A stretch of DNA of 64,000 bases from Chloroflexaceae bacterium (lineage in GTDB: Bacteria; Chloroflexota; Chloroflexia; Chloroflexales; Chloroflexaceae). The position numbers and the translations under genes were made by a program. This document shows positions 3,244 to 12,534 of the stretch, in pieces; the first letter of the stretch is position 1; each line of letters opens with the position of its first letter. The notes below the pieces were generated by a model, which did no database searches, was not told where the DNA came from, and was given only the letters and a program-made list of their open reading frames with translations. The stretch spans positions 1-64,000 of the forward strand of contig JANQID010000140.1 in the NCBI GenBank assembly GCA_028282325.1. The letters run 5' to 3'.

Positions 3244-3309
3244 CACATTCTGCGCGATGCGGCCCTCACCCCCGGCCCCTCTCCCGCGCGCGGGAGAGGG
3301 GAGATGCGA
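3244..3309. repeat. GC-rich palindromic dispersed repeat, copy 1
   Basis: The core is a near-perfect hairpin (CCCCTCTCCCGCG paired with CGCGGGAGAGGGG), preceded by a conserved arm beginning CATTCTGCGCGATGCGGCCC. The same arm and core recur near 4248-4341, and the core recurs inverted at 3719-3765. The layout resembles REP/MITE-like elements widespread in bacterial chromosomes. Confidence 0.75.
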
Positions 3310-3336
3310 TGGACAGATGGCGCGGCATCTACACGC

Positions 3337-3718: not shown

Positions 3719-3765
3719 TGTCTCCCCTCTCCCGCGTGCGGGAGAGGGGCCGGGGGTGAGGGCGA
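3719..3765. repeat. GC-rich palindromic dispersed repeat, copy 2 (inverted)
   Basis: The hairpin core CCCCTCTCCCGCG / CGCGGGAGAGGGG with small loop differences, followed by GCCGGGGGTGAGGGC. It is in opposite orientation to copy 1, so the DUF559 gene lies between inverted copies. Confidence 0.75.
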
Positions 3766-4247: not shown

Positions 4248-4341
4248 CACATTCTGCGCGATGCGGCCCTCGCCAACGCCACCGGCATTGGTTGCGGTCT
4301 CCCCTCTCCCGCACGCGGGAGAGGGGCCGGGGGTGCGGAGT
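4248..4341. repeat. GC-rich palindromic dispersed repeat, copy 3 with spacer
   Basis: The arm ACATTCTGCGCGATGCGGCC is shared with copy 1, followed after about 35 bases by the hairpin core CCCCTCTCCCGCACGCGGGAGAGGGG and a GCCGGGGGTGCGGA tail like copy 2. It interrupts the hsdM fragment to its right. Confidence 0.7.
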
Positions 4342-9987: not shown

Positions 9988-10320
9988 TTACTTTTGTTTC
10001 TGCAAGTGTGAACGGCGGTTATAAAGAGCGGCGCGGCATCGCGCGCAGATGCGGAACGGGACGCCCGTTCCGCTTTCCATTTGCAGATCATTGCGACATC
10101 CACAGTAGCGGCAGACGCTCAGGTTCTCGATATCTTCGGCTCGCCAGAGCTGTGGCGATTGGATAAGCTCCATATGGCCATTGATCGAGAGAATGCCGAT
10201 GCGTACACACACGGCAGCCGGGAATAACTCGGTGACTTTGGCAAAAAGCTGTTGTGGGTAGGAGTACACCTCGTCATCAATCCGAATCTCGTGCATTCGG
10301 GGATGTTGACGGATCTTCAT
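9988..10320 (-). CDS. Uncharacterised zinc-ribbon-like protein, last gene of the rpsB operon
   Basis: A 110-residue protein I do not recognise as a named family. Residues about 70-95 contain CRYCGCRNDL followed by RICARC, two CxxC knuckles typical of a zinc ribbon. The first half is a mixed alpha/beta sequence (RIGILSINGHMELIQSP). The start overlaps the end of the upstream 82-residue gene by 4 bases, so the two are translationally coupled and part of the same minus-strand operon as the Cas4-like pair and rseP. A DNA-, RNA- or protein-binding role is possible but unproven. Confidence 0.7.
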   Translation of the reverse strand: MKIRQHPRMHEIRIDDEVYSYPQQLFAKVTELFPAAVCVRIGILSINGHMELIQSPQLWRAEDIENLSVCRYCGCRNDLQMESGTGVPFRICARCRAALYNRRSHLQKQK

Positions 10321-10565
10321 GCGTACTTCAACTGTGTGATTAGATCTCGAAGTATAGCTTCATCTAGCGCAAAGGCGGGATCGTCCATAAACATAAGCGT
10401 ATCCAATATCGCGGGAATGATCGTTGCGTCGTCCGGAGAGAGTCCCGCTTCGTGTAGCTCCATATCATAGAACTGATCAAATGTCCAGCTTGCAAGCTGT
10501 TCATCATTCAGCATACCGGACAGTCTGGCTTCAATGTGTGAAATGATCTCGCTACGAGTTACCAT
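10317..10565 (-). CDS. Uncharacterised acidic 82-residue protein
   Basis: Small, acidic and Leu-rich (many Asp/Glu: LSPDDATIIPAILDTLMFMD), predicted all-helical by composition. No catalytic or metal motif is visible and I do not recognise the family. It begins 18 bases after the Cas4-like nuclease subunit stops and overlaps the zinc-ribbon gene by 4 bases, so it belongs to the operon tail. Small acidic proteins in such positions can be antitoxins, inhibitors or chaperones of a neighbouring enzyme; here that is only a guess. Confidence 0.65.
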   Translation of the reverse strand: MVTRSEIISHIEARLSGMLNDEQLASWTFDQFYDMELHEAGLSPDDATIIPAILDTLMFMDDPAFALDEAILRDLITQLKYA

Positions 10566-10583: not shown

Positions 10584-11156
10584 TTAATCAACCAGCGCTT
10601 CAGCACAGACATCAACAAACCCGCATCGAGCGCACCTGCGCGCCTCGTTATGGCTGCGCTCACAATCGCTTGCATCCAGCAGAACGCGCATATCATCCAA
10701 GATATCGAGCAGGCGGTTGTAGATTGCATCGTCGTAATCCACACGGAAGGTTCGGTCAGTATAGCGCAAAAGCCCGTAGGCGGGCGCCGTTCCGTAGGTT
10801 TCCTCGATCAGCAGGCAATAGGCGGCGAGTTGCATCAGATCTGATTCGTAAGGCTTTTGCGCTTGACGTCCTGGTTTTATTTCGACTGGTATGTAGGTTC
10901 CGTCAATCTTCATAATATAATCCGGCTTGCCGGTCAATCCATAACGGGAAGCGTAGAGCGGTCGCGCGAGCGTCCGCAAGCCGTCGGTATCGGAGGCGAC
11001 AATATCGCCCCATGGAAGGCCGGTGGCGCGACGCAGGCGCAGCGCGAGCCATAAAGCAAGTAGGGCCGCTGTAATCAAGCCAACCGCGACAACAGTGATC
11101 ATAACCCGAAAAAGAACGACGAAGACTACGGCAGCCTTCGTCGTTGCTATGTACAT
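10584..11156 (-). CDS. Membrane-anchored Cas4-like nuclease, C-terminal polypeptide
   Basis: About 190 residues. Residues about 10-42 are strongly hydrophobic (membrane segment). Then come the RecB/Cas4 nuclease motifs: GKPDYI (Asp), YIPVEIKPGRQ (E-x-K) and QLAAYCLLIEE (Q-x3-Y). A C-terminal Cys cluster, DCERSHNEARRCARCGFVDVC, matches the three C-terminal Fe-S ligands of Cas4. The N-terminal Cas4 parts, the first Fe-S Cys and the G-x3-H motif, are absent here but present in the preceding gene (11167-11397). The start is taken as ATG 11156, 10 bases after that gene's stop; a TTG at 11192 overlapping it is an alternative. There is no CRISPR array in the window. Cas4 proteins are 5'-3' DNA exonucleases; activity here is inferred. 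Confidence 0.75.
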   Translation of the reverse strand: MYIATTKAAVVFVVLFRVMITVVAVGLITAALLALWLALRLRRATGLPWGDIVASDTDGLRTLARPLYASRYGLTGKPDYIMKIDGTYIPVEIKPGRQAQKPYESDLMQLAAYCLLIEETYGTAPAYGLLRYTDRTFRVDYDDAIYNRLLDILDDMRVLLDASDCERSHNEARRCARCGFVDVCAEALVD

Positions 11157-11166
11157 CTCAGAAATA

Positions 11167-11397
11167 TTACGGCAACATGCTGATGACAGCAAGTGCTACG
11201 CCAGCAAAAAACAGCCCGATCGCGAGCAGCAGCAGCATCTGACTGAAGGTTACGGTGTGCCCGTGTTGGGTGTGCAACAGCGTCCCCTGGGCGCGGCGCT
11301 CGCGACCCTCCGGTTCGATCTCCACCACCCGATTTAGCCACCAGGCGCGCGCACAATACACGTACGCGCCAATTTCACTGGCGCGGATAATTTCCAT
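11167..11397 (-). CDS. Membrane-anchored Cas4-like nuclease, N-terminal polypeptide
   Basis: A 76-residue protein. Residues 5-20 (RASEIGAYVYCARAWW) match the Cas4 N-terminus with its single Fe-S cysteine, and GTLLHTQHG near 38-46 matches the first nuclease motif containing the metal-binding His. The C-terminal half (LLLLAIGLFFAGVALAVISM) is a membrane helix. It starts 3 bases after rseP stops and is followed at once by the polypeptide carrying the rest of the nuclease, in another frame. The two together look like one Cas4-type protein interrupted by a two-helix membrane hairpin. Whether the split is a genuine two-subunit design or an indel cannot be decided from one sequence. Confidence 0.72.
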   Translation of the reverse strand: MEIIRASEIGAYVYCARAWWLNRVVEIEPEGRERRAQGTLLHTQHGHTVTFSQMLLLLAIGLFFAGVALAVISMLP

Positions 11398-11400
11398 CGC

Positions 11401-12534
11401 CTACCCGCCTCCGAGAACGGGCACGTTAGTCACGGCCTTGATGACATCATTGACTGTGATCAAAACCATCAAGCCCATCAGTGCAGCAAAACCGAGGGCA
11501 TGCACGAGCGCTTCTTTTTCCGGCGGAACCTTCTTGCCGCCGCGCACCCATTCAATCAGCGAAAAAATAATGTGGCTTCCGTCTAACGCGGGGATCGGCA
11601 GGAGATTGAGCAGGAACAGATTGAGGCTTAGGATTGCCGTCAGGTTCCAGAAGGCCAGGAATCCGCCATCCTGCCGGATCACTTCGCCGGTCGCGCGGGC
11701 GATGCCCACCGGTCCGATGGGTTCTTCGGCGCCTTGATCATCCGGGTTAAACAAGCCGCCGATAGCGGCCGGTAGACGTGCCAAACCGTTGAACATCTGC
11801 CCCAGCAGGTCATAGGTGTATGCTGATCCGGATATCGTAGCTTCGATCGGGTTGGTTGTCTGACGAAACTCGCGATGGAGATTGTAGCCAATACCCAGGC
11901 CGACCGGGAGCGTTTCACCATCGGGCGTGGTCCAGGGTCCTGGAACCACAGTCAAACTGACTTCTTCGCCATCGCGCAACACCACTGCCGTGATTGGCAC
12001 GTTGAGGTTCTGACGGGCGATTTCGCTAATCACCGCGCCGTCTTCCAGCGAGCGACCATCCAGGCTTATGAGTTGATCCTCAACCTGGAACCCGGCTGCG
12101 GCGGCTGGCGTTTCGGGATAAATTTCGCTGATGAATTGATGACCGGTTGTAGTGGGCAGACCGACCGTCATCGACAAGATCGCAAAAATGACGATCGCTA
12201 GCAGCAGATTCATCAATGGGCCGGCTAGCATCACCGGAATCTTGGTCCAGGGATGTGCCTCGGACAAACTGCCTGCGCCGTACAGACTGTTATCTCCACC
12301 GCTGCCGAAGCGTACAAAACCGCCGAGCGGCAGCCAGTTCAACGTATATTTGACGCCGTTATGCTCAAAGAGCACCATGGCGCGAGGAGGATAGCCGATG
12401 CCGAACTCTTCAACATGAATGCCCAGTCGCACGGCTGTCAGGAAATGCCCCAACTCGTGGATCACAACGAGGATAAAAAGCATAAGCAGGAAGGCCCCGA
12501 TAGTAATAATCGGGTCGATGAGGTTGCCAAGCAT
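11401..12534 (-). CDS. rseP: Site-2 membrane metalloprotease (RseP/M50 family)
   Basis: A 377-residue intramembrane zinc protease that cleaves transmembrane segments of regulatory proteins such as anti-sigma factors. The first helix carries VVIHELGHFLTAV (HExxH, residues about 24-36). A PDZ domain lies around 125-215, and the second catalytic motif, LLPIPALDGSHI, is near residues 305-316, ahead of the last helices. It is in the common uppS-cdsA-rseP order. The Cas4-like gene follows within 3 bases, so the nuclease is co-translated with an envelope stress protease. Confidence 0.95.
   Translation of the reverse strand: MLGNLIDPIITIGAFLLMLFILVVIHELGHFLTAVRLGIHVEEFGIGYPPRAMVLFEHNGVKYTLNWLPLGGFVRFGSGGDNSLYGAGSLSEAHPWTKIPVMLAGPLMNLLLAIVIFAILSMTVGLPTTTGHQFISEIYPETPAAAAGFQVEDQLISLDGRSLEDGAVISEIARQNLNVPITAVVLRDGEEVSLTVVPGPWTTPDGETLPVGLGIGYNLHREFRQTTNPIEATISGSAYTYDLLGQMFNGLARLPAAIGGLFNPDDQGAEEPIGPVGIARATGEVIRQDGGFLAFWNLTAILSLNLFLLNLLPIPALDGSHIIFSLIEWVRGGKKVPPEKEALVHALGFAALMGLMVLITVNDVIKAVTNVPVLGGG

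Follow-up and report, generated by a model that had tools for sequence, protein, structure and literature searches.

The known nucleases of the Cas4 type are soluble and consist of a single chain. Members associated with CRISPR systems, such as those in the structures 8d3l, 7mi4 and 7mi5, consist of one chain that is bound to Cas1-Cas2. Dna2, ACE1, MGME1, EXO5 and the AdnAB nuclease domains also have a single-chain, soluble nuclease domain, in some cases with a helicase partner; in several of these enzymes, an Fe-S cluster is formed by one distant N-terminal cysteine together with three C-terminal cysteines. Solo-Cas4 proteins (COG1468/PF01930/TIGR00372) are described as monophyletic in many Chloroflexi, and the main text of that report makes no mention of a split or of a membrane helix in them (PMC5704561). 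Tethering of a nuclease to the membrane has been described for SNIPE, a GIY-YIG nuclease that is bound to the membrane, cleaves phage DNA as it is injected and is toxic in its anchor-less form (PMC13190303). This case shows that an unspecific nuclease can be confined by membrane tethering.

Here, two genes, A and B, are described from a 64,000-nucleotide stretch of DNA of a Chloroflexaceae bacterium (contig JANQID010000140.1; hereafter the window; Table 1). The initial annotation had read them as a Cas4-like nuclease split over two membrane polypeptides, the first carrying a lone cysteine, a His motif and a membrane helix, and the second carrying another helix, the Asp, E-x-K and Q-x3-Y motifs and the C-terminal cysteines. 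This reading was borne out, as both open reading frames (ORFs) are present, they cover complementary positions of the TIGR00372 profile, each encodes a helix, and the motifs are allocated as claimed. The pair shares with solo-Cas4 the Cas4 motifs, four cysteines in total, a location outside CRISPR loci and vertical inheritance. Unlike the known members, which are single soluble chains, A/B consists of two chains with one membrane helix each. The Chloroflexi solo-Cas4 of PMC5704561 may well be subunit B. A text search of open-access papers found no split or membrane-bound Cas4; thus, the family is known, whereas its divided membrane form appears to be undescribed in the papers searched. If real, A/B would represent a natural split enzyme that is kept divided throughout a phylum, even where its genes have moved apart, and would show how a nuclease without sequence specificity can be held at the membrane in nature. 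What solo-Cas4 does in Chloroflexi could then be addressed through two genes in cultured genera (Chloroflexus, Roseiflexus and Pelolinea).

Table 1. Features of the A/B locus, with positions given in the window.
Feature	Position	Strand	Remarks
ORF A	11167..11397	-	76 aa, ATG; N-terminal part of Cas4-type nuclease (Cys15, His42) plus one membrane helix
ORF B	10584..11102	-	172 aa from ATG 11102; membrane helix plus C-terminal Cas4 nuclease domain
rseP-type intramembrane protease (Peptidase_M50 + PDZ)	11401..12534	-	Neighbor upstream of A, in Chloroflexales only
Membrane helix of A	11176..11244	-	~Residues 52-74; predicted N-terminus in, C-terminus out
Membrane helix of B	11034..11096	-	~Residues 3-23; predicted N-terminus out, C-terminus in
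A Cys15, lone N-terminal Fe-S cysteine (YVYCARAWW)	11353..11355	-	106/106 aligned pairs; Fe-S role predicted
A His42, nuclease motif I (GxxxHxxHG)	11272..11274	-	106/106
B Asp61 (GKPDY), motif II	10920..10922	-	Predicted metal ligand; 106/106
B Glu74-x-Lys76 (VEIK), motif III	10875..10883	-	Glu 106/106, Lys 104/106
B Gln91-x3-Tyr95 (QLAAY)	10818..10832	-	Both residues 106/106
B Cys157, Cys160, Cys166 (C-x2-C-x5-C)	10605..10634	-	C-terminal three of predicted Fe-S cluster; 106/106
Terminator-like 14-bp near-perfect hairpin, then CTTTTT	11115..11145	-	Between A and B if B starts at 11102

In the window, A begins 3 bases behind rseP, downstream of a series that reads rpsB-tsf-pyrH-frr-uppS-cdsA-rseP, in which the names other than rseP come from a reading of the sequence. 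For B, an alternative in-frame ATG at 11156 would give a protein of 190 aa, and the frame is open to 11192. With that start, the hairpin listed in Table 1 (z -2.9) lies inside the B coding region. No hairpin of this type was seen at the other A/B junctions read. The hairpin may be an intrinsic terminator, in which case B would be expressed at a lower level than A in the window organism.

Family searches divide the Cas4 profile between the two proteins. B matches the Pfam model Cas_Cas4 (PF01930) with 39.3 bits (cut-off 22.7) and the NCBIfam model TIGR00372 with 66.0 bits (cut-off 65), the latter at profile positions 62-179 of 180 only. A gives a weak match to TIGR00372 (18.4 bits, E 0.0015), below the cut-off, that covers positions 2-46, i.e., the stretch that B lacks. 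Pfam places the Cas4/PDDEXK domain in B alone and finds nothing else credible in A. In a PDB sequence search, B aligned to residues 103-202 of the Cas4 chain 8d3l_I (E 3e-6), and residues 12-51 of this chain were weakly matched by A (E 0.2). Antibody heavy chains also appeared as matches of A in this search and were dismissed as chance hits with a shared YCAR-x-WW. The PD-(D/E)XK motifs are divided, with the His in A and the Asp, E-x-K and Q-x3-Y in B, and so are the four Cas4-type cysteines, of which one is in A and three are in B in 106/106 pairs. With two ORFs in place of a single chain, A/B is classed as a divided variant of the Cas4 family and not as an ordinary member. Even without the N-terminal Cys and the His, B passes the TIGR00372 equivalog cut-off for CRISPR-associated Cas4. 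Because the score of B lies narrowly above this cut-off, annotation is likely to present B as a whole Cas4 and to miss A.

The predicted structures agree with this assignment. AlphaFold2 models were built as single joined chains, which imposes proximity, from 14-15 sequences each. For a Roseiflexus-type pair, whose stop was artificially translated as Gly, the model comprised a single alpha/beta domain and two long helices (pLDDT 87.9, pTM 0.84); for the pair of the window, fused at the stop of A, the corresponding values were 84.8 and 0.80. Foldseek matched the joined-chain models to Cas4 (8d3l), Cas4/Cas1 (7mi5), Dna2 (5eax), ACE1 and MGME1 with probability 1.0, and the best matches also included Cas4/Cas1 7mi4, AdnAB and EXO5. 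The structural match to RecB/Cas4 on which the initial annotation had staked its reading is thus present in these models, and joined A+B is predicted to have the Cas4 fold. CRISPR-associated Cas4 is the best structural match and also the best sequence match of B. Between the His of motif I and the Asp of motif II, an ordinary Cas4 from the same phylum (L248) has ~35 residues, counted by eye, versus ~95 in A+B, and the excess corresponds to the two helices.

The distribution survey covered Chloroflexota. Among the loci of the 30 nearest relatives, 29 have a separate A ORF upstream of B, and in the thirtieth genome (G016) A is on a different contig; in a genome-contig scan, A was a separate ORF in 77/80 named loci. 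The initial annotation had contrasted two conserved ORFs in relatives, as expected of a real two-subunit enzyme, with one fused ORF. All 122 distinct neighboring pairs consist of two ORFs, and none is fused. Both ORFs share one frame in only 14 of the 122, with a stop between them. Most commonly, the B match starts within a few bases of where A stops. At several junctions the ORFs overlap in ATGA or TGATG, a pattern that resembles translational coupling. Some Anaerolineae have an entire gene, HEAT-repeat-like or of another type, between A and B. Furthermore, the two genes are unlinked in families f5, f8, f35 and f77 and in one Caldilineaceae genome. On single contigs, they are 887 kb (G085), 182 kb (G465) and 2.8 Mb (G344) apart, the last distance falling to ~0.5 Mb if the 3.3 Mb contig of G344 is circular; in further genomes, they are on different contigs. 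A programmed frameshift or stop read-through that would unite A and B was rejected on account of the freely varying frames, the intervening genes and the unlinked genes.

The two genes also occur together. Of the Chloroflexota genomes sampled, 72 have B at E<1e-56, and all 72 have A; six further genomes have divergent pairs side by side. In five relatives that lack a clear B, there is no real A either (one weak match, E 0.022). Only B was found in G159, G160 and G009, and only A in G216 and G449; several of these five genomes are incomplete or cut at a contig end. In family f30, the five loci read have, adjoining B, a divergent A that carries a C-terminal helix of its own; this A was missed by the profile A2 and detected by inspecting the sequence beside B. 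One genome (G363) has, besides an intact copy (L231), a second, damaged A/B copy (L232), with a B frame interrupted between two ORFs and an incomplete A match. The pair occurs in most Chloroflexales, where it is near-universal, in much of Anaerolineae and in further families of the phylum. No phage record and no confirmed IMG/VR viral contig matched A/B, and the plasmid matches were ordinary Cas4. An origin from a mobile element or phage was thus rejected, and A/B is best read as vertically inherited.

Across 106 aligned pairs, the Cys and His of A and the Asp, Glu, Gln, Tyr and three Cys of B are invariant, and the Lys is present in 104 (82/83 after deduplication to 83 pairs). Pairwise distances of A and of B correlate with r = 0.91, a value expected for one shared history, in which co-evolution and shared ancestry are not separated. 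A strong hydrophobic helix was found in 137/137 A and 133/137 B sequences, the remaining four B sequences being clipped or truncated. Lys and Arg are in excess before the helix in 133/137 A (the reverse in 0) and after it in 124/137 B. By the positive-inside rule, this pattern predicts that both soluble parts lie in the cytoplasm, with A N-in/C-out and B N-out/C-in. In one locus (L244 of G169, family f23), an A-like and a B-like protein form a pair with degenerate B motifs (GKPSY, E-x-K absent); to judge from these residues, this pair may be an inactive derivative.

The genomic setting of A/B differs among lineages. In Chloroflexales the order is rseP-A-B, often followed by two small genes, and in Anaerolineae it is A-(gene)-B-NAD kinase-zinc finger-recN. 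Other families have translin-like-A-B, an HD-domain-like gene beside the pair (f30), or phoU-A with B elsewhere, and recA lies near A in one f35 genome only. The sole constant neighbor of either gene is the other half. Since the contexts are lineage-dependent, the operon setting says little about function, and guilt by association within the operon was given little weight. The rpsB-rseP setting noted in the initial annotation is accordingly correct as to position but specific to Chloroflexales, and it carries little functional information. A Translin-family gene (PF01997) is a recurrent upstream neighbor of A in several families; it was seen at or near A in loci L271-L275, L277-L281 and L160, where it adjoins an unlinked A, and in the Anaerolineales loci L083, L088, L089, L102, L107 and L110. 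As an obligate third partner it was rejected, since the family is also present in genomes that lack A/B and many genomes with A/B yielded no member of it. A correlation with ComEC, considered with regard to DNA uptake, was uninformative, as ComEC is present in 308/350 genomes with or without A/B.

Taken together, A and B are likely to be the obligate subunits of a membrane-tethered PD-(D/E)XK nuclease of the Cas4/Dna2 type. The computed basis comprises gene structure, conservation, co-occurrence even of unlinked genes, charge topology and a confident joined-chain fold; physical assembly, nuclease activity and an Fe-S cluster are inferred from these. Alternatively, the split might reflect an indel from sequencing or assembly, or the recent decay of a single Cas4 gene into a pseudogene; the 14 pairs mentioned above, whose ORFs are in frame and separated by a stop, would fit this. 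This explanation is refuted, and its probability negligible, given the lack of any fused form among 122 distinct pairs from many assemblies, the junction overlaps, the inserted genes, the unlinked genes in near-complete genomes and the invariant active site. It is also conceivable, if improbable, that B is a working nuclease alone and A a separate membrane protein (a regulator, anchor or inhibitor) that resembles the Cas4 N-terminus. B passes curated Cas4 cut-offs by itself, and many PD-(D/E)XK nucleases function without an Fe-S cluster. However, the Cys and His absent from B are invariant in A, A aligns to the very profile stretch missing from B, and every sampled genome with a clear B also has A. 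A relative with a structural or signaling role and no catalytic activity would have a precedent in a viral nucleocapsid Cas4 derivative and a parallel in the L244 family, which has lost motif residues; the invariance of the active-site residues in the main family makes this option highly unlikely.

The Cas4 resemblance raises the further question of an accessory role in CRISPR adaptation, i.e., prespacer trimming by a membrane-bound CAS-Cas4. The initial annotation had reported no CRISPR array, which holds for the locus itself but not for the genome, where Cas1 is encoded on another contig. Cas1 is indeed common, occurring in 51/61 relatives. Nevertheless, B is kept in 7 of the 10 relatives that lack Cas1, and a CRISPR link was rejected on this ground as a general explanation. 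A/B does not lie beside cas1/cas2; its neighbors are rseP, NAD kinase/recN, translin-like or other genes. In addition, many genomes with A/B have an ordinary single-chain Cas4 as well. No membrane helix was found in 17 copies of this ordinary form, and the idea that it might contain a hidden one was rejected (0/17). In a tree, the split B proteins occupy one side of a branch versus the 17 ordinary Cas4, with support of 81/83, which is not significant. A role in CRISPR adaptation is thus very improbable, and the A/B nuclease is best read as independent of both Cas1 and the rpsB-rseP operon.

For the two-subunit enzyme, the following arrangement is proposed. A and B would each cross the cytoplasmic membrane once, in opposite orientations, and their helices would form an antiparallel hairpin without an outer loop, so that the soluble parts could meet at the cytoplasmic membrane face. 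A would contribute the N-terminal Fe-S cysteine and the His of motif I, and B the Asp, E-x-K, Q-x3-Y and three C-terminal cysteines, and a single metal site and a single Fe-S cluster would be completed by their contact. Such an enzyme might act constitutively, trimming or degrading DNA ends at the inner membrane face, and the tether would keep it off the chromosome. SNIPE offers a comparison, as it is a nuclease tethered on the cytoplasmic side of the membrane, and such a location is predicted for A/B from hydropathy and charge (137 A, 137 B). In contrast to A/B, SNIPE is a single chain with an unrelated GIY-YIG fold, a DUF4041 DNA-binding domain and a patchy, defense-type distribution; in Pfam searches, A/B had neither a GIY-YIG nuclease nor DUF4041. 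The near-universal presence of A/B in Chloroflexales, as opposed to the patchy distribution of SNIPE, argues for a housekeeping task on DNA at the membrane, either incoming DNA or ends under repair.

Between these tasks, a role in handling incoming DNA (transformation, phage or conjugation) is tentatively considered possible. That the same two-subunit enzyme is instead a membrane-placed repair or recombination factor, which does not act on incoming DNA, is viewed as doubtful, as is any other role. The recN and recA neighborhoods hint at DNA repair, though they are lineage-bound: B directly precedes the NAD kinase, zinc-finger and recN genes in Anaerolineae, yet the recN neighborhood is largely that of one lineage, recA lies near A in a single genome, and Chloroflexales have rseP instead. 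The vertical, core-like distribution and the fold match to Dna2 and AdnAB are consistent with a repair factor. In its broadest form, the two-subunit reading is that of a core, phylum-wide nuclease whose active site and Fe-S cluster would be completed only when two oppositely oriented membrane proteins meet. Assembly in the membrane would thereby license the enzyme, and A/B would define a membrane-licensed class of Cas4/Dna2 nucleases with a non-CRISPR function, a proposal regarded as plausible and, on balance, somewhat favored.

Two further observations concern the surroundings of the pair in the window. Downstream (3') of B lie two small genes on the minus strand (9988-10320 and 10317-10565), which encode proteins of 110 aa and 82 aa, respectively. 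The 110-aa protein has a weak zinc-ribbon match, and the 82-aa protein has no family assignment; both genes are found again at many loci of Chloroflexales (clusters c9 and c7). Farther away, a palindromic element of 26-43 nt occurs in three dispersed copies and in both orientations (3262-3313, 3720-3763 and 4297-4338). Its sequence, CCCCTCTCCCGC....GCGGGAGAGGGG, resembles a repetitive extragenic palindrome, and the copies lie near small genes that were judged by eye to be nucleotidyltransferase-like, DUF559-like and antitoxin-like.
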